This document shows positions 2,829 through 63,133 of a stretch of 64,000 bases of DNA, in pieces (the first letter of the stretch is position 1; every line of letters starts with the position of its first letter). The stretch spans positions 2,594,592-2,658,591 of the forward strand of contig NZ_CP121687.1 of NCBI RefSeq assembly GCF_038396635.1. The letters are read 5' to 3'. The notes under the pieces were generated by a model. The model was not told the DNA's origin and did no database searches. It saw only the letters and a program-made list of their open reading frames with translations. The DNA comes from Defluviitalea saccharophila. GTDB taxonomy: Bacteria > Bacillota > Clostridia > Lachnospirales > Defluviitaleaceae. Made by a program: the position numbers and the translations under genes.

Positions 2829-3593
2829 ATGAAAAATATAAAAATGAGAATTTTAATAAATAACATATATAAAAGTAAGTTGCTATTATTTTTTGTATTA
2901 TGTAGTACTGCCGTATTATTCGTAGGTTGTCAGAATAAGAATACAAATTCAAATACAGAGAACAAGCAAACAATAGATAGTCAAAAAATAGAGGATAACA
3001 GCAAAGATAGAATGACGCCAGAGGACTCAAATATATCAGAAGTTCCTCCAAGTGTAGAAGAAAGTAGCAGTGAAGAATCAACTCTTCTATTTTCTGAACT
3101 ATCAAAGTATCAATTCGTATTCTCCAGTGGAGCTGGGGCTTGGCAAACTATGTTAAACATTAATGAGGATGGAACGTTCAACGGATATTATTCAGATTCT
3201 GACATGGGTGATATTGGAGAAGATCATCCCAATGGAGTGAATTATTCATCCACCTTTGAAGGTAAATTCACCACACCAAAGAAAGTAAATGATTATACTT
3301 ATTCCATATCCATCGAATCTATGAAACTTGAGAAAGAAGCAGGAACTGAAGAAATCATTGACGGAATAAAATATATCTATACTGAACCATATGGGTTAGA
3401 TGGTGCTAAAGAAATTTATATCTACACACCACAAGCTCCCATAAAAGAATTGCCTGAAGGTTTTAGAAGCTGGGTTGGCTACATGGATTTAAGTGATCTG
3501 AAAGATGAATACTTGCCGTTTTATGGATTGTACAATGTAGAAACAGAAAGTGGATTTTCAAGCTATGAGATAGATCAAACAGAGGAAGATTAA
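2829..3593 (+). CDS. putative lipoprotein, function unknown
   Basis: The ATG at 2829 is chosen because AGGAG lies at 2817-2821; an earlier in-frame ATG at 2799 lacks a ribosome site. The product has a basic N-terminus, a hydrophobic stretch and a lipobox ending in FVGC, so it is probably lipid-anchored outside the membrane. A Ser/Asn/Glu-rich linker (about residues 35-85) leads to a beta-rich domain with aromatic and Gly-Asp repeats. I recognise no family. Confidence 0.65.
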   Translation: MKNIKMRILINNIYKSKLLLFFVLCSTAVLFVGCQNKNTNSNTENKQTIDSQKIEDNSKDRMTPEDSNISEVPPSVEESSSEESTLLFSELSKYQFVFSSGAGAWQTMLNINEDGTFNGYYSDSDMGDIGEDHPNGVNYSSTFEGKFTTPKKVNDYTYSISIESMKLEKEAGTEEIIDGIKYIYTEPYGLDGAKEIYIYTPQAPIKELPEGFRSWVGYMDLSDLKDEYLPFYGLYNVETESGFSSYEIDQTEED

Positions 3594-46522: not shown

Positions 46523-47864
46523 GGCTCTGTTAACTTAGTATGAAAGAAATGAGATCTGAAAGGCCTCTGGTAGGTTTAAAAAAGGAAAAAAACCTACAAA
46601 TGGAAACGACTATGTGTAAGATAACACGAAAAAAAGATACGTGCAAGCCTTGAAAAAATAATAAAGGCAGCACAAATAGTCCTGATGTAGAACAGGACGG
46701 AATGAACATTGAAATCTGAATATTACTCAAGCTACCAAAAGCCAGAATAACCGTTCTTTATCCGAGTATTTTATACCAGCAACTTGAGCTGGAGTGAGAC
46801 CGTTGAGGCTGGAATGTGGGCGTATAAAGTTGTAAAAGAAGATGTAAGTAGCAATAAGTCTATTGGCAGATTCAAATGAATTAAATCCTCTTTTAGGCTT
46901 GTACCAAGCTTTAAATTGACCATTAAAAGCCTCTAAGACGTTGTTGTTGATTAAATCATCAAAATCTTCAACACGGATATGTTTTGCGTTAGGGAAGAAC
47001 AAAGAAGCAGGCTGCTGATAGGCATAATATCTGTCAGAAATGACAGCAGACCGGGGTTGTCCAAACTTTCTTCTGCAGTTAGATAAAAGGCTATGTGCAG
47101 ATGCCGAGTCACGCATAGGGGAAAGATTGAAGTCAAGAACTAATCTGGTTTCTGAATCAATGGCGAGCCAGAGGTAATAATCTTTACCAGCAATTTTAAT
47201 ATAAGTTTCATCGAAATGCCATTCATCCGAATCGCAAAGATTAATCCCCAAAAGCCTGTCATCAGCAATTTTCTTGAATACAGGAGCAAAGCGCTTGATC
47301 CATTTAGAAACAGTTACATGAGAAACCTTAACCTGGTGGACCATATGTAAGGTTTGAGCGACTTTCCGTGTTGTTGAATTTCCGCAGAAGTAGTAAGTCA
47401 GTGCATGAAGAACAATATGAAGCGGATGGCGCATACCTTTAAAAGAAAAGGATTCGGGCTTAAATTCAGAAGAAGGTGGTTGAACATTAATTAGTTTTGG
47501 TACTCGAAAAGAATGGTTGCATTTTTTGTCACAGCAACGGAAGTTTGAGTAATAAGTATAGTCATGGTGAAGAAAAGTTGCTTTACCACAAACAGGACAA
47601 TCGGGATATTTTCTTTTTCTTGGTGAACCTGGTTTATCAGGTGCAAACTGGCGTTTGCATCGTTGACACTGATATCTTTGAAAACCGTCTTTGTCCTTAC
47701 CAAAACGGTGAAGAACTTTTGAAAAACACCTTGGACATACTACGTTTTTTGGTATAATGGTCATGAGACTTGAACGCTCCTTTCTGGGAGGTAATGGTTG
47801 TTTGGCAATTTCCATTATACCAGAGGCGTTTCAGGTCTCATTTTTTTATTAAGTTAACAGAACA
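46523..47864 (-). mobile_element. IS6-family insertion sequence, intact copy
   Basis: The element is 1342 bp with 8-bp target duplications TATTTTAT on both sides (46515-46522 and 47865-47872). Terminal inverted repeats are about 50 bp and imperfect: the left end begins GGCTCTGTTAACTTA, the right end (reversed) TGTTCTGTTAACTTA, and both have CCTCTGGTA near their inner end. It carries one transposase gene and lies between promoter and ribosome site of the flavodiiron gene. The last base is ambiguous because element and target both have an A there. Confidence 0.92.
46727..47764 (-). CDS. IS6-family transposase with N-terminal zinc ribbons
   Basis: The 345-residue product starts at ATG 47764 (AAAGGAG upstream); an ORF extension to 47815 runs into the terminal repeat. 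Two zinc-ribbon-like units (CPRCFSK, YQCQRCKRQF; CPVCGKAT, CCDKKCNHSF) are followed by an HTH region and the DDE catalytic core: DEWHFDETYIKI, VISDRYYAY, and the Glu in NNVLEAFNGQFKAW. IS6 elements move by copy-in and form cointegrates. Confidence 0.92.
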   Translation of the reverse strand: MTIIPKNVVCPRCFSKVLHRFGKDKDGFQRYQCQRCKRQFAPDKPGSPRKRKYPDCPVCGKATFLHHDYTYYSNFRCCDKKCNHSFRVPKLINVQPPSSEFKPESFSFKGMRHPLHIVLHALTYYFCGNSTTRKVAQTLHMVHQVKVSHVTVSKWIKRFAPVFKKIADDRLLGINLCDSDEWHFDETYIKIAGKDYYLWLAIDSETRLVLDFNLSPMRDSASAHSLLSNCRRKFGQPRSAVISDRYYAYQQPASLFFPNAKHIRVEDFDDLINNNVLEAFNGQFKAWYKPKRGFNSFESANRLIATYIFFYNFIRPHSSLNGLTPAQVAGIKYSDKERLFWLLVA

Positions 47865-52734: not shown

Positions 52735-53799
52735 ATGAAAAAGAAAATTATATGCAGTGTGCTTTTGATTAGTATTCTATTAAACTTGTTACCGAGTATG
52801 GGATACGCAGCAACCAAGAATTCTGCCAAACCATCAGCAGGATGGTATTATCTGCGTATTATGTGGAACTATCTTAATGTAGATAAAAATGGTAACCTTG
52901 AACTGCGTAATAAGAGCAATACCAAAGAAGGGAATACGAAGTTCAGAATACATGATTATGGGAATGGTGACTATGAATTTGAATTAGAGGACGGAAGATA
53001 CTTAGGATTAGAGATCACCCAGGAGGAAATGGCTAAACACCCTGACAAGTTAAAAGGACTGAGAGTAAAGGCAGTTAAGAAAGATCCTAAAAAATATATG
53101 ACTACCTGGAATGCCTATAGTGAAAATGATTATGATCTTTTTAATATACGCCCAAGAATGAATAAAGATTATGTTGTAAACGCCAGTGGAGAAAAGAAAG
53201 ATGATGGAACGGCCATTATAGTATGGAAACATGCAGATCCGTGGATTTGTGCAGCTTATCCAACCCCTGATGCGCCTCATCATGCAGAAATTAGATTTAT
53301 ACCGGTTTTACCAGCAGTATTCAGTGTAAAATATAATAAGACTCCATACAGGGATAAACCGGAGGGAAAGGTACTGGGCGAATTTGGCAGTGGGGAAAAA
53401 GTATGGGTAACCAAGATAGACGGCAATTGGGCGACTATTCAGTACAAAGGTAAAGAATATTATATGTGGGCACCTAAGTTAGCTACCGTAAATCCAACTG
53501 TTGTTGCACCTATAATATTAAAGAGCATGCCTTCAAAATGTGATTATAAGATTGGTGAAACCTTTGATATTAAAGGTTTGAATGTTGTAGATATAACGGG
53601 CGGAAAAGAAACCAATGCTAATAATGATATAAAGTTTTATATGCGAGAAGCTGTTTATTTAAAAGATAACAGTTATACATTAAAAGATCCTGTAGAAATT
53701 AAGCCAGGCTACAAATTTAATAAAAAAGTTGAAGCATCCATAGAGATAAACTATAAAGGAGTAGCCTTACAATCTTATTGGATAGAAATAACGAAGTAG
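52735..53799 (+). CDS. secreted beta-trefoil/SH3-like protein
   Basis: A signal peptide (IICSVLLISILLNLLPSMGYAA) is followed by a ricin-like beta-trefoil region (about 30-195; GWYYLRIMWNYLNVDKNGNL, DYDLFNIRPRMN, DDGTAIIVWKHADPW). A bacterial SH3-like unit follows (about 200-250; TPYRDKPEGKVLGEFGSGEK, WVTKIDGNWATIQYKG), then a bacterial Ig-like domain (about 258-354; PSKCDYKIGETFDIKGLNVV). Such proteins bind cell-wall or carbohydrate ligands outside the cell. No enzyme domain is seen. GAAGGAGG precedes the ATG. Confidence 0.75.
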   Translation: MKKKIICSVLLISILLNLLPSMGYAATKNSAKPSAGWYYLRIMWNYLNVDKNGNLELRNKSNTKEGNTKFRIHDYGNGDYEFELEDGRYLGLEITQEEMAKHPDKLKGLRVKAVKKDPKKYMTTWNAYSENDYDLFNIRPRMNKDYVVNASGEKKDDGTAIIVWKHADPWICAAYPTPDAPHHAEIRFIPVLPAVFSVKYNKTPYRDKPEGKVLGEFGSGEKVWVTKIDGNWATIQYKGKEYYMWAPKLATVNPTVVAPIILKSMPSKCDYKIGETFDIKGLNVVDITGGKETNANNDIKFYMREAVYLKDNSYTLKDPVEIKPGYKFNKKVEASIEINYKGVALQSYWIEITK

Positions 53800-55234: not shown

Positions 55235-55290
55235 AAAACGAGTAATGTTTATCATGTCAGTCTATTGGATAAACAATACTCGTTTTTTAT
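55235..55290 (+). promoter_or_regulatory. leader terminator of the ABC exporter operon
   Basis: AAAACGAGTAATGTTTATC pairs with GATAAACAATACTCGTTTT (19 bp, one mismatch), followed by TTAT. A smaller AAAACTTAA/TTAAGTTTT hairpin lies at 55199-55221. The long stem sits between promoter and start codon, so transcription should stop here unless relieved. Confidence 0.75.
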
Positions 55291-55307
55291 GGAAAGGACT
55301 GATTTTT

Positions 55308-57053
55308 ATGATTAGAGAATTGGCACGAAGTGTACGTGAGTACAAGAAACTATCTATTATGACGCCAATACTCATTAGTTTGGAAGTTGTCATTGAATGT
55401 ATCATTCCATTTATTACAGCAAATTTGGTCAATGAGATTAAAAGCGGATGCGACTTAAACACAATCCTTCAGTATGGAATGATCCTGATTATTATGGCAT
55501 TTTTATCATTGGCCTTTGGCGGTATTGCAGGTACTACCAGTGCTACTGCGGCCTGCGGATTTGCAAAGAATTTAAGGAAAGATATGTTTTATAGTATTCA
55601 GAATTATTCCTTTGAAAATATCGATAAGTTTTTAACTTCATCGTTGATTACCCGTATGACAACCGATGTAAGTAATGTACAGAATGCATATATGATGCTC
55701 ATTAGAGTGGCGGTCAGGGCTCCTTTGATGTTGATTTTTGCATTTGTGATGGCATTTGTGATGGGAGGACGTATGGCATGGATTCTCCTTGTGGTTGTTC
55801 CCATTCTCGCAATTGGTCTGGGGATTGTCATATACAAGACCTTTCCGTTATTCAGGAAAGTTTTCACGAAATACGATGCCTTAAATAAATCTATTCAAGA
55901 AAATATTAAAGGAATGCGCGTAGTAAAATCTTTTGTTCGGGAAGATTATGAGCAGAAAAAATTTGAGGCAGCGGCTGAGGATGTCTGCGCCGACTTTACA
56001 AAGGCAGAACGTATTTTAGTGCTTAACGGACCTTTAATGCAGTTTTGCATGTATGTAGTGATGGTTTTTGTGCTATCCTTTGGCTCCTATACCATTATTA
56101 CAAGCAGAGGATTGGCTTTTGATATCGGGCAATTTTCCGCATTATTAACTTACAATTTTATGATTTTAAGCAGCTTAATGATGCTTTCCATGGTATTTGT
56201 TATGATTACTTTGGCTGGGGAATCAGCTAAGCGTATCGTTGAAGTATTAACTGAGAAAAGCACATTAACAAATCCTGAAAATCCCATATATGACGTTAAA
56301 GATGGTTCAATTTCTTTTGAGAATGTTAGCTTTAAATATTCCAAAAAAGCCGAGAGAATGGCTTTATCAAATATCCATTTACAAATAAAATCTGGCGAAA
56401 CCATTGGAATTATCGGTGGAACAGGATCTTCAAAAACATCCCTTATTCAGCTCATTCCACGTCTCTATGATGCGACTGAAGGTGTTGTAAAAGTGGGTGG
56501 CATAGATGTAAGGAATTACGATTTGGATACTTTAAGAAATCAGGTTGCAGTTGTGCTGCAAAAGAATATTCTCTTCTCAGGAACCATTAAGGAGAATCTC
56601 CGTTGGGGCAACAAGGATGCAACCGATGAAGAATTGGTTGAGGCTTGCAAACTTGCATGTGCTGATGAATTTATCAGTCAATTTCCTAAGGGCTATGACA
56701 CCTATGTTGAGCAAGGGGGAGCCAATTTATCAGGCGGTCAGAAGCAAAGGCTTTGTATCGCCAGGGCACTACTTAAAAAACCTAAAATATTAATTCTTGA
56801 CGATTCTACCAGTGCGGTGGATACCAAGACAGATGCCAAAATCCGTAAAGCTTTCCGGGAATACATTCCTGAGACAACCAAAATTATTATTGCTCAGAGA
56901 ATAGCTTCTGTTGAGGATGCGGACAAAATCATCGTCATGGATAAAGGAACTATTACTGGTATCGGAACCCATAAGGAATTATTGGCTACCAATGCTATTT
57001 ATCAAGAAATATACTATTCTCAAAATAAGGCGGGTGATCAAAATGAAAACTAA
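55308..57053 (+). CDS. ABC exporter half-transporter with degenerate NBD
   Basis: ATG 55308 follows GGAAAGGA; an in-frame extension to 55245 runs through the terminator stem. The 581-residue protein has a six-helix type I exporter domain and an NBD. Its Walker A is GGTGSSKTS, signature LSGGQKQR, Walker B ILILDDSTSAVD with Asp replacing the catalytic Glu, and the switch His is Gln (IIIAQRIASV). It is therefore the non-hydrolysing partner of a heterodimer with the next gene. Lipid, peptide or drug export is usual for the class. Confidence 0.88.
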   Translation: MIRELARSVREYKKLSIMTPILISLEVVIECIIPFITANLVNEIKSGCDLNTILQYGMILIIMAFLSLAFGGIAGTTSATAACGFAKNLRKDMFYSIQNYSFENIDKFLTSSLITRMTTDVSNVQNAYMMLIRVAVRAPLMLIFAFVMAFVMGGRMAWILLVVVPILAIGLGIVIYKTFPLFRKVFTKYDALNKSIQENIKGMRVVKSFVREDYEQKKFEAAAEDVCADFTKAERILVLNGPLMQFCMYVVMVFVLSFGSYTIITSRGLAFDIGQFSALLTYNFMILSSLMMLSMVFVMITLAGESAKRIVEVLTEKSTLTNPENPIYDVKDGSISFENVSFKYSKKAERMALSNIHLQIKSGETIGIIGGTGSSKTSLIQLIPRLYDATEGVVKVGGIDVRNYDLDTLRNQVAVVLQKNILFSGTIKENLRWGNKDATDEELVEACKLACADEFISQFPKGYDTYVEQGGANLSGGQKQRLCIARALLKKPKILILDDSTSAVDTKTDAKIRKAFREYIPETTKIIIAQRIASVEDADKIIVMDKGTITGIGTHKELLATNAIYQEIYYSQNKAGDQNEN

Positions 57054-58938
57054 TCCAACTAAAAATAGAAAATCGATCATCCTTCGCTTGTTTAAAACCA
57101 TAGTTGAGTTTTACCCGGTAATGTTCCCGACGGTTATTTTATTTATCATATTCAATGCGATAATAGGCTCTATCCCTGCTGTATTTATGCAGAATATTAT
57201 AGCGATTGTGGAGCAAAACTGGCAAGCCGGTGACTGGAATGGGGTAGAAGGAAAAATATTATCCCTTGTTGGGATATTAGTGGTATTTTATGTATTATCC
57301 CTTGCCAGTGGTTATGCATATAACCAGATGATGGCCATTATTACTCAAGGAACTTTGAAAAAATTCCGTGTAAAAATGTTTAACAGGATGCAAACCCTGC
57401 CAATTAAATATGTAGACACCAATAATCACGGCGATATCATGAGTTATTATACCAATGATATCGATACCTTACGACAACTGATTTCTCAGAGTTTTCCGCA
57501 GCTATTGGTATCAAGTATTACCGTAATCTCTGTTTTTGGCATTATGATCTATTACTGCCTGTGGTTAACCCTTGTTGTAGTTATCGGAGTCATTATAATG
57601 CTTTTTGTCACTAAAAAGGTTGGAGGCGGTTCTGCCAAATACTTTATAAAGCAGCAGAAAGCCCTTGGCCATCTGGAAGGCTTTGTGGAAGAAATGATGA
57701 ACGGACAAAAAGTCATCAAAGTCTTCTGCCATGAGAATGAAAGTAAAGCAGATTTTGATAAAATTAATGATTCTTTATTTAGCGATGCAAGAGCAGCCAA
57801 TCGATATGCAAATATCTTAGGTCCGATATTGAATAATATTGGGAATATATTATATGTTTTTGTTGCAATTAGCGGCGGTATTTTACTAATCACCAATGTT
57901 CCGAATGTAAGCATTTCAGGGCTTGCAATGGGCATTAGTATTGTTGTCCCATTTCTGAACATGACAAAGCAGTTTGTCGGGAATATCAATCAGGTGTCCC
58001 ATCAGATCAATGCCGTTGTTATGGGGATTGCCGGTGCACAACGCATTTTTGATTTGATAGATGAAGAACCAGAAAAGGACAACGGATATGTTACCTTAGT
58101 CAATGTCCGCGAAGAGAATGGACAACTTATTGAATGTAAAGAGAGAACAGGAATTTGGGCGTGGAAGCATCCTCACGGCGATGGTTCTGTAACGTATACC
58201 AAATTAACCGGAGACGTAAGATTATTCGATGTTGATTTCGAATATGAACCGGGAAAAACCATTTTACACGATGTAAGCCTTTACGCAAAACCTGGGCAAA
58301 AAGTTGCTTTCGTTGGTGCAACCGGTGCCGGAAAAACAACGATTACAAATTTGCTCAATCGTTTTTATGATATTGCCGATGGAAAAATCCGTTATGACAA
58401 CATCAACATCAACAAAATTAAAAAATCAGATCTTCGCCGTGCCATTGGCATGGTACTGCAGGATACCAATCTTTTTACCGGTACTGTAATGGATAATATA
58501 CGATACGGTAAGCTGGATGCCACCGATGATGAATGTATTGCAGCAGCAAAGCTAGTAGGGGCAGATGATTTCATTACACGTTTACCCGATGGGTATAATA
58601 CGATGCTTACTGAAAATGGTGCTAATCTCTCCCAAGGACAGCGCCAGCTTATTTCTATTGCCAGAGCAGCGGTGGCTGATCCTCCAGTTATGATTTTGGA
58701 TGAAGCAACATCTTCTATAGATACAAGAACTGAAGCCATTGTTCAGCGAGGAATGGATGCACTGATGAAAGACAGAACAGTATTTGTTATCGCCCATCGC
58801 CTGTCCACAGTAAAAAACTCTGATGTGATTATCGTATTGGATCATGGACGTATCATTGAACGAGGCAACCATGAAGAATTGATTGCTAAGAAAGGGCAGT
58901 ACTATCAGCTGTATACCGGTGCATTTGAGTTAGAATAA
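57043..58938 (+). CDS. ABC exporter half-transporter with catalytic NBD
   Basis: ATG 57043 overlaps the partner gene by 11 bp; the ORF extends upstream only inside that gene. The 631-residue protein has six membrane helices and a canonical NBD: GATGAGKTT, LSQGQRQLISIARA, VMILDEATSSID and VIAHRLSTV. An insert of about 50 residues with CKERTGIWAWKHPHGDG lies between membrane domain and NBD, a feature of this clostridial subgroup. It supplies the ATP hydrolysis of the exporter. Confidence 0.9.
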   Translation: MKTNPTKNRKSIILRLFKTIVEFYPVMFPTVILFIIFNAIIGSIPAVFMQNIIAIVEQNWQAGDWNGVEGKILSLVGILVVFYVLSLASGYAYNQMMAIITQGTLKKFRVKMFNRMQTLPIKYVDTNNHGDIMSYYTNDIDTLRQLISQSFPQLLVSSITVISVFGIMIYYCLWLTLVVVIGVIIMLFVTKKVGGGSAKYFIKQQKALGHLEGFVEEMMNGQKVIKVFCHENESKADFDKINDSLFSDARAANRYANILGPILNNIGNILYVFVAISGGILLITNVPNVSISGLAMGISIVVPFLNMTKQFVGNINQVSHQINAVVMGIAGAQRIFDLIDEEPEKDNGYVTLVNVREENGQLIECKERTGIWAWKHPHGDGSVTYTKLTGDVRLFDVDFEYEPGKTILHDVSLYAKPGQKVAFVGATGAGKTTITNLLNRFYDIADGKIRYDNININKIKKSDLRRAIGMVLQDTNLFTGTVMDNIRYGKLDATDDECIAAAKLVGADDFITRLPDGYNTMLTENGANLSQGQRQLISIARAAVADPPVMILDEATSSIDTRTEAIVQRGMDALMKDRTVFVIAHRLSTVKNSDVIIVLDHGRIIERGNHEELIAKKGQYYQLYTGAFELE

Positions 58939-59003: not shown

Positions 59004-59074
59004 TTTTATTAAAGGTTCACTAAAGGCAAATAGTATATGATAAGAAATGTAAGGCGGCCGCTTACAAAAAATAT

Positions 59075-60415
59075 GGCTCTGTTAACTTAGTATGAAAGAA
59101 ATGAGATCTGAAAGGCCTCTGGTAGGTTTAAAAAAGGAAAAAAACCTACAAATGGAAACGACTATGTGTAAGATAACACGAAAAAAAGATACGTGCAAGC
59201 CTTGAAAAAATAATAAAGGCAGCACAAATAGTCCTGATGTAGAACAGGACGGAATGAACATTGAAATCTGAATATTACTCAAGCTACCAAAAGCCAGAAT
59301 AACCGTTCTTTATCCGAGTATTTTATACCAGCAACTTGAGCTGGAGTGAGACCGTTGAGGCTGGAATGTGGGCGTATAAAGTTGTAAAAGAAGATGTAAG
59401 TAGCAATAAGTCTATTGGCAGATTCAAATGAATTAAATCCTCTTTTAGGCTTGTACCAAGCTTTAAATTGACCATTAAAAGCCTCTAAGACGTTGTTGTT
59501 GATTAAATCATCAAAATCTTCAACACGGATATGTTTTGCGTTAGGGAAGAACAAAGAAGCAGGCTGCTGATAGGCATAATATCTGTCAGAAATGACAGCA
59601 GACCGGGGTTGTCCAAACTTTCTTCTGCAGTTAGATAAAAGGCTATGTGCAGATGCCGAGTCACGCATAGGGGAAAGATTGAAGTCAAGAACTAATCTGG
59701 TTTCTGAATCAATGGCGAGCCAGAGGTAATAATCTTTACCAGCAATTTTAATATAAGTTTCATCGAAATGCCATTCATCCGAATCGCAAAGATTAATCCC
59801 CAAAAGCCTGTCATCAGCAATTTTCTTGAATACAGGAGCAAAGCGCTTGATCCATTTAGAAACAGTTACATGAGAAACCTTAACCTGGTGGACCATATGT
59901 AAGGTTTGAGCGACTTTCCGTGTTGTTGAATTTCCGCAGAAGTAGTAAGTCAGTGCATGAAGAACAATATGAAGCGGATGGCGCATACCTTTAAAAGAAA
60001 AGGATTCGGGCTTAAATTCAGAAGAAGGTGGTTGAACATTAATTAGTTTTGGTACTCGAAAAGAATGGTTGCATTTTTTGTCACAGCAACGGAAGTTTGA
60101 GTAATAAGTATAGTCATGGTGAAGAAAAGTTGCTTTACCACAAACAGGACAATCGGATATTTTCTTTTTCTTGGTGAACCTGGTTTATCAGGTGCAAACT
60201 GGCGTTTGCATCGTTGACACTGATATCTTTGAAAACCGTCTTTGTCCTTACCAAAACGGTGAAGAACTTTTGAAAAACACCTTGGACATACTACGTTTTT
60301 TGGTATAATGGTCATGAGACTTGAACGCTCCTTTCTGGGAGGTAATGGTTGTTTGGCAATTTCCATTATACCAGAGGCGTTTCAGGTCTCATTTTTTTAT
60401 TAAGTTAACAGAACA
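59075..60415 (-). mobile_element. IS6-family insertion sequence, copy with frameshift
   Basis: This 1341-bp copy is the same as the one at 46523 wherever compared, apart from one lost G in a GGG run (60154-60155 against 47603-47605). The target duplication is AAAAATAT (59067-59074 and 60416-60423). Its right end lies 25 bp before the start codon of the Asp-box protein gene, again between promoter and ribosome site. The frameshift splits its transposase. Confidence 0.92.
59279..60315 (-). pseudogene. frameshifted IS6-family transposase
   Basis: The reading frame starts as in the intact copy (ATG 60315), goes through the first zinc ribbon and shifts after RKRKYP because of the 1-bp loss near 60155. 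The out-of-frame tail ends at 60043. The remaining catalytic part could restart at 59986 (MRHPLHIVLHALTYYFCG) but would lack both zinc ribbons. This copy probably depends on the other one for movement. Confidence 0.88.
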
Positions 60416-60440
60416 AAAAATATCTTAAGGAGGTATAATA

Positions 60441-60998
60441 ATGAATAAAAAAATATTATCAATGTTAGATACAACAAAAAAGAAAGCAGGTGCTGTTGTG
60501 CTTAGTACAGCATTGGTTACAGCACTGGGGGTTAGTACGGTATTTGCAGCAAATTCAATAAATTTTTTACAGGTTAAGATGGAAAATGGAGTTAAAAGTT
60601 ACTCAACTGATAACGGAAAGACTTGGAGTCAGGATGCTCCCTATGGCATGACAGTAAACGATGAAGAGGGGAAACTTACTATTAGTAATGGAGATCCTTC
60701 AAAACTTGGAGAAGGAAAGGGAATTCTGACCAAAATGGAAGACGGTATCAGATACTATTCTACAGATGGAGGAAAGACCTGGAGCCAGGATGCCCCATAT
60801 GGTGTTACAGCGAGGGACGCAGATGGTAAGATTACCATTTCTAATGGTGCTCCGAAGGATGATAAAGGAAATAGTCTGCTGATTAAAATGGAAGATGGTA
60901 TTAGGAACTATTCTACTGATGGTGGAAAGACTTGGAGCAAGACACCACCTAAAAGTATAACAGTGAATGAAGACGGTTCTGTGGTCAATAAGAATTGA
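60441..60998 (+). CDS. secreted protein with three Asp-box repeats
   Basis: A signal peptide (AGAVVLSTALVTALGVSTVFAA) leads to three tandem repeats of about 45 residues: KMENGVKSYSTDNGKTWSQD, KMEDGIRYYSTDGGKTWSQD and KMEDGIRNYSTDGGKTWSKT. Each holds a sialidase-type Asp-box (STDxGKTW). There is no catalytic domain; the 185-residue protein would be a small extracytoplasmic ligand-binding or structural protein. AAGGAGG precedes the ATG. The IS inserted just upstream has probably separated it from its own promoter. A two-component system follows. Confidence 0.75.
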   Translation: MNKKILSMLDTTKKKAGAVVLSTALVTALGVSTVFAANSINFLQVKMENGVKSYSTDNGKTWSQDAPYGMTVNDEEGKLTISNGDPSKLGEGKGILTKMEDGIRYYSTDGGKTWSQDAPYGVTARDADGKITISNGAPKDDKGNSLLIKMEDGIRNYSTDGGKTWSKTPPKSITVNEDGSVVNKN

Positions 60999-61066
60999 CA
61001 ATAATAAGATTCGTTAATGATAAGTACAAAAATACATGGATACGAGGATAAAATATATTTCTTACC

Positions 61067-61098
61067 ACATAGGAGCTGTGGTCAGCTCCTATGTATAT
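61067..61098 (+). terminator. hairpin after the Asp-box protein gene
   Basis: ACATAGGAGCTG pairs perfectly with CAGCTCCTATGT around TGGT. Confidence 0.75.
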
Positions 61099-61146
61099 AT
61101 GTAATTTTAATAACCGATTCAAATGAGCAGGCGAGGAGGACCACAC

Positions 61147-61830
61147 ATGAGGCTATTAATGGTTGAAGATGAAAAGTACATGGCAGAAGCTGTTGCTCAA
61201 GTTCTTAAAAAGAATAACTATAGTGTCGATTTGGTCTATAACGGTGAAGATGGATTAGATTATGGCCTTTCAGGCATTTATGATATCATTATTCTGGATA
61301 TCATGCTTCCTAAAATGGATGGTATAACCATACTTAAGGAATTGCGTAAAAACGGCATTGAAACACCCGTTATTTTATTAACTGCAAGAGGAGAAATAGA
61401 AGATAAGGTGCGTGGTCTTGATAGCGGTGCGGATGACTACCTGGCAAAACCGTTTCATACGGATGAACTTTTAGCACGTTTGCGGGCCTTAGGGCGAAGA
61501 AATACGGAACTAATCAATGACGGCATTCTCACATATGGAGATATCAAACTGAATCCACATACCCTTCAGCTTGAATGCGGAAGTAAAGAAACAGCTTTAA
61601 CTTTAAAAGAGTCCCAGTTGTTAGAATTACTCATAAAAAGAAAAGGAATGATTGTTTCAAAAGAAAATATTATTGAAAAGCTGTGGGGATATGATACAGA
61701 TGCAGAAGATAATCGTGTAGAAATACATATATCCCTTTTACGAAAAAAGATGGCTCAACTAGATTGTGGCGTTTACATTCATACTGTACGGGGCGCAGGA
61801 TATGTCCTAAAAACAGAAAAGGATGGTTAA
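61147..61830 (+). CDS. OmpR-family response regulator
   Basis: ATG 61147 follows AGGAGG at 61134-61139. The 228-residue protein has a receiver (LLMVEDEKYMAEAVAQVLKK, Asp in IIILDIMLPKMDG, LDSGADDYLAKPF) and a winged helix (LTLKESQLLELLIKRKGMIV, VEIHISLLRKKM). It is of the CutR/ArlR-like type. It overlaps the kinase start by a few bases, and the two form a signalling pair. The Asp-box protein directly before it is a candidate target. Confidence 0.9.
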   Translation: MRLLMVEDEKYMAEAVAQVLKKNNYSVDLVYNGEDGLDYGLSGIYDIIILDIMLPKMDGITILKELRKNGIETPVILLTARGEIEDKVRGLDSGADDYLAKPFHTDELLARLRALGRRNTELINDGILTYGDIKLNPHTLQLECGSKETALTLKESQLLELLIKRKGMIVSKENIIEKLWGYDTDAEDNRVEIHISLLRKKMAQLDCGVYIHTVRGAGYVLKTEKDG

Positions 61831-63133
61831 TAAAATGTTTACGAAATTGCGCAATAAATTTCTCATTCTTAATATGACCATGACTTCAGCAGTAATGATT
61901 ACTGCTTTTCTTGTTATTTATATCATTAGCTATAATAATATCCATTCAGAAATTGCGAAAAAACTGAATCCACAATTTGGCGTACAAACTGTAATAGAAG
62001 GAACGGAATTACACGTTGACACAGAAAATAGCAAATCTAAAACTTTATATCGTAGGTTTTCACAAGACGATACGTATTCATTTATTGTCCAGGTAGACGA
62101 AAATGGTGAGATCTTAGATATAGATTCTCCTTTTAATATGCTTGATGAAACATACAAGGAAGCTGTCGAAATTGCTTTGAGCAATAAAGATAACAATTCC
62201 ACAATAACTTTGGAAGGAAAGCAGTGGAGATATTCCATTAATCCAATGAAAAAACAAGTTATTCAGGAGAACGGGCAGACATATACCATAGCGGATGACA
62301 AATACCACATCATGTTTTTGGATGTTACGATATATAAACAAACTCTGTTTCAATTGCTTATGACATTAATTTCAGTAGGAATCATAATGCTTTTGGTTCT
62401 TTTTTTCATAAGTCTTTGCTTTGCCAACCGAGTAATTCAGCCAATAGCCGAAGCATGGGAAAGGCAGAAACAATTTGTAGCCGATGCTTCCCATGAATTA
62501 AAAACACCCATTTCAATTATAAATGCCAATTACGATGCCCTTTTGGCAAACCAGGAAGAGACCATTAAGAGCCAATTAAAATGGCTTGAGTATATCAAGA
62601 TTGGAACCGATAGAATGACAAAACTTGTTAACGATCTTTTATCTCTGGCCAAGATGGAGGATATGAGATTTGAAATACAAAACGTTCCATTCAATATGAG
62701 CAATACAATTCATGATGTGATTTTATCCATGGAAGCTGTAGTATTTGAAAAAGGCATTACAGTCACTCGTTCAATTGAACCGGATATAATGGTTAAAAGT
62801 GATCCTGAAAGAATTAAACAGGTTATCACGATTCTATTTGATAATGCCGTAAAGTATACGGATCCAAAGGGACAGATTGATATATCTCTGACTAAGTCAA
62901 AACGTCATATTACCTTTTCTATAAAAAATACTGGGAAAGGAATCTCTACACAAGAATTGCCGAAAATATTTGATAGATTTTATCGTGTAGATTCCTCTAG
63001 AACCCATGAAACAGGCAGTTATGGCCTAGGCCTATCCATCGCGAAAACTATCATAGAGCGCCTAGGTGGTGGAATATACGCCGAAAGTGTGGAAAATGAA
63101 TATGCAAAATTCACTTTTACACTTGCACGATAG
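61823..63133 (+). CDS. sensor histidine kinase
   Basis: Two membrane helices (about 14-34 and 172-195) enclose an outside sensor region of about 135 residues that has no recognised fold. The kinase core has FVADASHELKTPISIINANY (H-box), ITILFDNAVKYTD (N-box), FDRFYRVDSSRTHETGSYGL and SIAKTIIERLGGG (G-box). No HAMP linker is obvious. The start is ATG 61823 (overlapping the regulator stop) or ATG 61835. It phosphorylates the regulator encoded just before. Confidence 0.9.
   Translation: MVNKMFTKLRNKFLILNMTMTSAVMITAFLVIYIISYNNIHSEIAKKLNPQFGVQTVIEGTELHVDTENSKSKTLYRRFSQDDTYSFIVQVDENGEILDIDSPFNMLDETYKEAVEIALSNKDNNSTITLEGKQWRYSINPMKKQVIQENGQTYTIADDKYHIMFLDVTIYKQTLFQLLMTLISVGIIMLLVLFFISLCFANRVIQPIAEAWERQKQFVADASHELKTPISIINANYDALLANQEETIKSQLKWLEYIKIGTDRMTKLVNDLLSLAKMEDMRFEIQNVPFNMSNTIHDVILSMEAVVFEKGITVTRSIEPDIMVKSDPERIKQVITILFDNAVKYTDPKGQIDISLTKSKRHITFSIKNTGKGISTQELPKIFDRFYRVDSSRTHETGSYGLGLSIAKTIIERLGGGIYAESVENEYAKFTFTLAR

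Follow-up and report, generated by a model that had tools for sequence, protein, structure and literature searches.

What does a small exported protein built from Asp-box repeats do directly in front of a two-component system? The question is raised by the window, a 64,000-nucleotide stretch of Defluviitalea saccharophila DNA (contig NZ_CP121687.1, positions 2,594,592 to 2,658,591 of the forward strand; coordinates below are counted from its first nucleotide). In the window, an Asp-box gene precedes the genes for a response regulator and a histidine kinase. Comparison of related loci strongly supports a functional link between the Asp-box protein and this regulator-kinase pair, as judged from gene order and shared control DNA. 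The explanation placed first here is a three-component module under its own control, with the exported protein either reporting to the kinase or exerting feedback on it; we give it about an even chance of being right. The three genes are:

60441-60998, + strand: Asp-box gene, an open reading frame (ORF) of 185 amino acids (aa); the mature part by predicted cleavage is about 149 aa, 16 kDa
61147-61830, + strand: OmpR/PhoB-type response regulator; ORF open from 61123; Response_reg 3.4e-30, Trans_reg_C 1.2e-22
61823-63133, + strand: membrane sensor histidine kinase, 436 aa; HisKA 1.3e-13, HATPase_c 1e-26; outer domain at about aa 34-175

Distribution and linkage of the Asp-box gene

An earlier note on this DNA described an exported 185-residue Asp-box protein directly before a regulator-kinase pair; the ORFs, the Pfam BNR match and the signal segment agree with that description, export being predicted. 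The response regulator comprises a receiver and a winged-helix DNA-binding domain (Pfam), and comparison with the genus relative G003 places its start probably at 61147 (MRLLMVEDE). The Asp-box gene is single in its own genome, where the next match in a genome search has E=0.19. Within the genus it occurs in two of four genomes; a second, draft genome of this species is without it.

A scan of genome contigs returned at least 46 loci. Among the matches listed, eight (L004-L011) encode short exported Asp-box proteins adjoining the same regulator-kinase pair, in Anaerosolibacter, a Clostridiaceae metagenome-assembled genome, Gordonibacillus, [Clostridium] ultunense, two Pelotomaculum, Paenibacillus and Seinonella. 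The motif was found by strict pattern in 35 of the other 38 loci listed, in proteins of at least 343 aa save for L041 (118 aa), the locus of this group whose neighbourhood was examined. At the class level, a profile at E ≤ 1e-6 matched 8 of 391 genomes: the members G000, G061, G279 and G325, the M56 receptors G022 and G329, and Asp-box proteins of about 400 aa in G102 and G237; G061 gave an M56 match as well. The order of Gordonibacillus gave 11 matching genomes out of 344, namely nine members (one of them, G677, split across contig ends), a relic in G485 and an M56 receptor in G626. In the relic (L154, 5131-5439), the regulator is missing and the beginning of the Asp-box gene leads into that of a kinase gene from the same family.

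Nineteen members have a readable context: the window, G003, L004-L011, G279, G325, G061, G562, G460, G690, G742, G450 and G528. A neighbourhood check, set beforehand as a possible refuter of the link, found homologues beside kinases in all 19 loci, with both regulator and kinase genes adjoining the Asp-box gene each time. The order Asp-box gene, regulator, kinase is kept in 17; in L009 the Asp-box gene comes last, after regulator and kinase, and in G690 it is oriented divergently. The genes flanking the module vary, and no shared neighbour beyond the three genes was seen across loci. ABC exporter pairs lie upstream in the window, G003 and L011, and an FtsX-type pair in G279; neither was seen directly upstream in the other loci.

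Several neighbouring observations stand on their own. The exporter pair of the window (55245-58938) is heterodimeric and lies directly upstream of the Asp-box promoter; it is retained in G003, and a similar pair is upstream in Pelotomaculum L011. Further away, 52735-53799 encodes a secreted 354-aa protein of uncertain family, lectin-like by eye. L041 (5983-6339) encodes a one-box protein with a membrane segment and a BNR score of 17.6 bits (cut-off 27) in an ABC-transporter/two-component cluster, and is perhaps a separate link between Asp-box and two-component genes.

Control DNA of the module

The control elements of the window and the mobile element that separates them from the gene are as follows:

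59010-59041, + strand: predicted response-regulator box (direct repeat TAAAGGTTCACTAAAGG) and -10 element TATGAT, 22 of 23 consensus positions
59048-59066, + strand: palindrome TGTAAGGCGGCCGCTTACA, just 3' of the -10; candidate operator or 5' mRNA element
59075-60415, - strand: IS240/IS6-like insertion sequence (IS), DDE_Tnp_IS240 E=1.5e-24; exact ends inferred
61067-61094, + strand: 12-bp stem-loop in the gap that separates the Asp-box and regulator genes; intergenic folding energy -26.8 kcal/mol, z -3.37

Comparison of 220 upstream bases revealed a common promoter layout: TAAAGGTTCGCTAAAGG, nine bases, TATGAT, about six bases, TGTAAGGCAGCTGCTTACA and a ribosome site. TAAAGGTTCGCTAAAGG is a direct repeat with an 11-bp period. 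The box and -10 precede the Asp-box gene in all 19 loci, at 16-23 of 23 positions (19 in Seinonella, 16 in G742). The consensus was derived from these same sequences, so the comparison was made with other genes of the same loci: only 3 of 218 other upstream regions (ORFs of at least 100 aa starting at least 400 bases from the Asp-box gene) reach a score of 16. These three belong to the regulator genes of L009 and G690 and to an ABC transporter in G528. L009 and G690 are exactly the two loci in which the regulator cannot share the Asp-box promoter.

The window holds a single strong site, that at 59010-59041 (38.5 bits; next 12.6). Across 19 genomes, box and -10 with at most two mismatches occur at 23 sites, comprising 18 Asp-box promoters, four regulator genes and the G528 ABC transporter; the Seinonella Asp-box promoter, with three mismatches, falls outside this set. 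Since the pattern was made from the family, the five sites away from Asp-box genes are the informative ones. The four regulator sites are those of the L009 and G690 loci and of two related regulator-kinase pairs, L187 (G403:C6) and L188 (G460:C30), where the same box precedes the regulator gene; both pairs adjoin genes that we take, by eye, to be VTC-like and DUF4956-like. Admitting three mismatches gives 68 sites, 45 of them at three mismatches, against a background of 48 for the reversed pattern. The placement of the 23 close sites is typical of a regulator's own binding site, and because 18 of them are Asp-box promoters, the chief target of the regulator appears to be the Asp-box gene. The regulator would control the module through the direct repeat.

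In 22 genomes, the box alone at up to one mismatch stays near the level of the reversed pattern (128 matches versus 120; own genome 7 versus 4), which it exceeds in G218 (20 versus 8), G401 (12 versus 4), G279 (8 versus 1) and G399 (8 versus 2); the gene behind the G218 site was examined, and the regulator may have additional targets. In G218, a one-mismatch box (L092, about 3575-3591) lies before an FtsX-type ABC permease adjoining a related kinase pair without an Asp-box gene, a weak observation given that genome's background.

The palindrome accompanies the Asp-box gene and not the regulator gene. Its exact matches number 11 in 22 genomes, all at Asp-box promoters, and 15 of the 19 Asp-box promoters have it within two mismatches (11 exact and four more). 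Variants are visible by eye in G325, G690 and L009, and the Seinonella copy is degenerate. Away from these promoters there are ten matches, each with two mismatches; with 25 matches in all at up to two mismatches versus 28 for the reversed pattern, only the location of the exact ones counts as evidence. Shuffles of the palindrome keep no relatedness, and their 1/500 is not a probability. The innermost pair covaries (A:T in 11, G:C in five and G:T in one of 17 rows). As this pair encloses only two bases in most rows, it argues against a hairpin, while an RNA element is favored by the T:G pairs of four rows and by an asymmetry of one base; a search in four loci gave no Rfam match. An origin from a BlaI operator was considered and rejected: the regions upstream of blaI-like genes in five BlaI-M56 loci contain no similar palindrome. 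The stretch between the Asp-box and regulator genes was folded for 16 loci, and in 13 of them its fold reaches z ≤ -2.8. G003 (a gap of 12 bases) and L009 and G690 (other order) were left out of folding, and the L004 stretch was extended 60 bases into the open frame.

In the window strain, the IS element sits between the promoter and palindrome and the ribosome-binding site of the Asp-box gene, flanked by an 11-bp repeat (59064-59074 and 60413-60423). The window holds a second, near-identical copy at about 46.5-47.9 kb, which aligns over 1345 columns with a single gap and no mismatch. The promoter of G003 is uninterrupted, and the module of the window strain is probably uncoupled from its own switch by the insertion. 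A simple scan of the region returned no + strand promoter-like site, which says little, as the same scan misses the conserved promoter. The two IS copies were also noted at 46727-47815 and 59279-60366, the transposase frame of the 59-kb copy being split into two ORFs.

Architecture of the Asp-box protein and the kinase outer domain, with a probable origin of the leader

The Asp-box protein consists of an export segment followed by three S-x-D-x-G-x-T-W boxes, all on the + strand:

60441-60548, + strand: export segment (aa 1-36), sharing homology with the final membrane segment in M56/BlaR1-like receptors
60603-60626, + strand: Asp-box 1 (STDNGKTW), aa 55
60759-60782, + strand: Asp-box 2 (STDGGKTW), aa 107
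60912-60935, + strand: Asp-box 3 (STDGGKTW), aa 158

Pfam BNR matches the protein in three stretches (E=1.6e-10, 39.8 bits versus a cut-off of 27). The same stretches match Tli3 (27.9 bits, cut-off 27) and CHB_HEX_C, the chitobiase C-terminal domain (27.2 bits, cut-off 23.6), the best of them covering just 22 residues around an Asp-box of profiles 129 and 76 long, respectively. No enzyme family reaches its cut-off, in agreement with the earlier note, which saw no enzyme here; NCBIfam glycosyl_F510_1955 matches at E=3.1e-10 with 39.7 of 175 bits, and BNR_2 in Pfam stays below its cut-off (21.4 of 31.4 bits). The motif and the repeats of about 50 aa are shared with Asp-box beta-propellers such as GH33 sialidases (PMC2716378), from which the family differs in having one to four units and no catalytic domain at cut-off.

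The number of boxes varies from one to four among the 19 members. Repeats are near-identical within some proteins (100% in G742, 95% in G450, 93% in L009), and in 10 of the 17 proteins with at least two repeats the best repeat match lies in another locus. The single-box members (L011, G528) are too short to form a propeller alone. Oligomers of few-blade Asp-box proteins are possible in principle, by analogy with designed blocks of one to six blades, which are described as assembling into homo-oligomers of six to nine blades (PMC6805158); those designs are WD40-derived, and an Asp-box assembly is hypothetical. Another option is an Ig-like setting, as Asp-boxes are described also in non-propeller folds including an Ig-like domain of chitobiase (PMC2716378), whose family, CHB_HEX_C, is among the Pfam matches above.

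The leader carries a trace of a different history. Its first 37 residues match the segment that follows the M56 protease domain in BlaR1-like receptors, and the start methionine aligns with a receptor methionine. Five receptors (L104, L105 and L155 confirmed by Pfam; L106 and L113 by eye) score 25-51 bits versus a maximum of 20.4 over 400 shuffles each. When the segment alone was searched against 196 genomes, the non-family matches beginning at its first position were the M56 receptors G061, G022 and G041 and an FtsK-like protein of G045 (E 5.6e-5, identified by eye); eight more begin later in the segment. This homology points to a receptor as the ancestor of the leader, perhaps of the entire exported part; the M56 proteins examined contain no Asp-boxes. 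Unlike receptors of the BlaR1/MecR1 type, which act with BlaI, the Asp-box protein has no M56 match in Pfam, and no such palindrome is seen upstream of the blaI-like genes in the five loci compared. The signal segment ends VFA|A, a site assigned by pattern.

The outer domain of the kinase, credited in the earlier note with no known fold, appears PAS/PDC-like in a structural model (mean pLDDT 76; residues 52-81 under 50). The best fold comparison is to a WalK-YycH integrative model (Z 9.7, rmsd 5.7, 178 aligned), and five entries for the LuxQ periplasmic domain follow (Z 8.5-9.1, rmsd 2.7-3.1, 105-124 aligned); these Z values are moderate, and Foldseek alone gave no match at E ≤ 0.001.

Feedback partner, effector or co-receptor

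Because the three genes and their control DNA recur together in distant bacteria, the repeat protein looks like a dedicated partner or product of the sensor. In the mechanism favored here, the kinase would sense an envelope or extracellular cue through its PAS/PDC-like outer domain and phosphorylate the regulator, which would bind the direct repeat before the Asp-box gene. That gene would be driven strongly, and the regulator and kinase genes behind it more weakly, past the intergenic hairpin. Exported by a leader derived from the final membrane segment in a receptor of the BlaR1/M56 type, the Asp-box protein would act outside the cell at or near the kinase outer domain, bind a ligand or damage product, and adjust the output of the kinase, in the manner of CpxP with CpxA or HbpS with SenS. 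The main visible targets of the regulator are the Asp-box gene and its own gene, which admits three readings: feedback partner, effector and co-receptor. The fixed tie to one kinase subfamily puts the feedback or reporting partner first, the effector next and the co-receptor third. The earlier note had proposed an accessory or sensor subunit for the kinase. The link itself is borne out by adjacency and promoter in 19 of 19 loci; the ligand-binding sensor subunit is not, as the promoter marks the protein first as a target of the regulator, making feedback or effector roles at least as likely.

Several observations weigh against a feedback partner. A sensor profile matched 26 of 391 class genomes at E ≤ 1e-10, strongly (E<1e-50) in five, the four members and G218, and the G218 regulator-kinase pair has no Asp-box gene; a kinase of this kind can thus do without the protein. 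In the kinase tree, G218 falls among the Asp-box family (86/66, weak support), the kinase of Seinonella, a locus with the gene, clusters with the pairs lacking it (93/73, weak), and the labels with and without the gene require two changes. Co-evolution of the repeats with the kinase sensor is not significant (partial r 0.18, p=0.10) in 18 of the 19 loci, L011 being excluded for masked bases; the corresponding values are 0.27 (p=0.049) for the regulator and -0.09 (p=0.74) for the kinase core. A box number of one to four is unexpected for a fixed protein-protein fit, a regulator with one strong target fits a plain effector too, and the AlphaFold2 model of the repeat protein shows Asp-box hairpins only, at low confidence (mean pLDDT 48, pTM 0.33). 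Among the weaker sensor-profile loci, 11 neighbourhoods were examined and none held an Asp-box gene; six adjoin genes that look, by eye, VTC-like and DUF4956-like.

The nearest competitor, somewhat less probable than the feedback partner, is an inducible secreted effector, an output of the kinase pair that would bind or sequester a glycan, wall fragment or antimicrobial peptide outside the cell and never touch the kinase. Its promoter is nearly the sole close match of box and -10 in the genomes searched, the promoter-proximal position and the intergenic hairpins suggest high output, and related boxes precede ABC transporters in G528 and, weakly, in G218. The mature protein is acidic in 17 of 19 members (pI 4.05-5.32); however, two are basic (pI 9.7-9.8), so simple charge trapping is not general, and linkage to one kinase subfamily in every locus is tighter than an effector needs. 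It is unlikely that the Asp-box protein instead binds the ligand on behalf of the kinase as its subunit, on the pattern of LuxP and LuxQ, with autoregulation only setting receptor abundance, a reading that overlaps the favored one. The resemblance of the sensor model to LuxQ and the descent of the leader from receptors whose last segment precedes an outer domain speak for it, but the regulator would then be left with almost no closely matching target other than its own receptor, no sensor-specific co-evolution is seen, and the signal-peptidase-like site in the leader means that the protein may be released. Decay of a propeller enzyme with Asp-boxes, such as a sialidase, whose remnant lies beside a two-component system by chance, would account for the motifs, the faint similarity to sialidase chains (best phmmer E 0.0058) and the F510_1955 match below its cut-off. 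This is hardly credible, being largely refuted by the family's conservation as a short protein (about 149 aa mature, one to four repeats in all 19 members), by the promoter and linkage common to all loci and by the BNR_2 score.

A bolder version of the partner reading, which we hold to be quite doubtful, sees a dismantled receptor: a BlaR1-like last segment and an Asp-box sensor tail would have become a free exported kinase partner, whose one to four blade-like units form homo-oligomeric rings. Ligand occupancy of the ring would set the kinase, the ring protein would be the only strong target of the loop, and the palindrome would provide a second input.

Exported kinase partners are already known one by one (CpxP, HbpS, LuxP and QseG), QseG being an exported partner of a histidine kinase. 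CpxR exerts strong control over cpxP, and HbpS is not known to be related to the Asp-box protein. In Escherichia coli, CpxP is described as contacting CpxA and as being displaced by stress (PMC4160245). The module resembles CpxP-CpxA-CpxR in pairing an exported accessory protein with a kinase and a regulator, and differs in its Asp-box repeats and in placing the gene before the pair in the same cluster in 17 of 19 loci; the list of 13 Pfam matches to the Asp-box protein contains neither CpxP/Spy nor periplasmic-binding-protein (LuxP-type) families. HbpS-SenS-SenR of Streptomyces is likewise described as a secreted protein, kinase and regulator in one signalling pathway; many genes are reported under SenR-dependent control (PMC4991794), whereas one strong target is seen in the present module. 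LuxQ of Vibrio, to judge by structure titles, was solved in complex with its separate partner LuxP, and its outer domain is moderately similar to the model predicted here; unlike LuxP, the Asp-box protein lacks the binding-protein match.

The open literature searched contained no description of the Asp-box/two-component pairing, the family, its promoter or its leader origin, and to that extent these are new. The family spans Clostridia and Bacilli, and its conserved promoter makes the circuit directly testable. Its exported partner is built only of Asp-box repeats in variable number, and the leader keeps a trace of a receptor origin. The family offers a compact system for studying the path from a repeat unit to a partner of a kinase, and for testing whether Asp-box proteins of few blades adopt an oligomeric fold.

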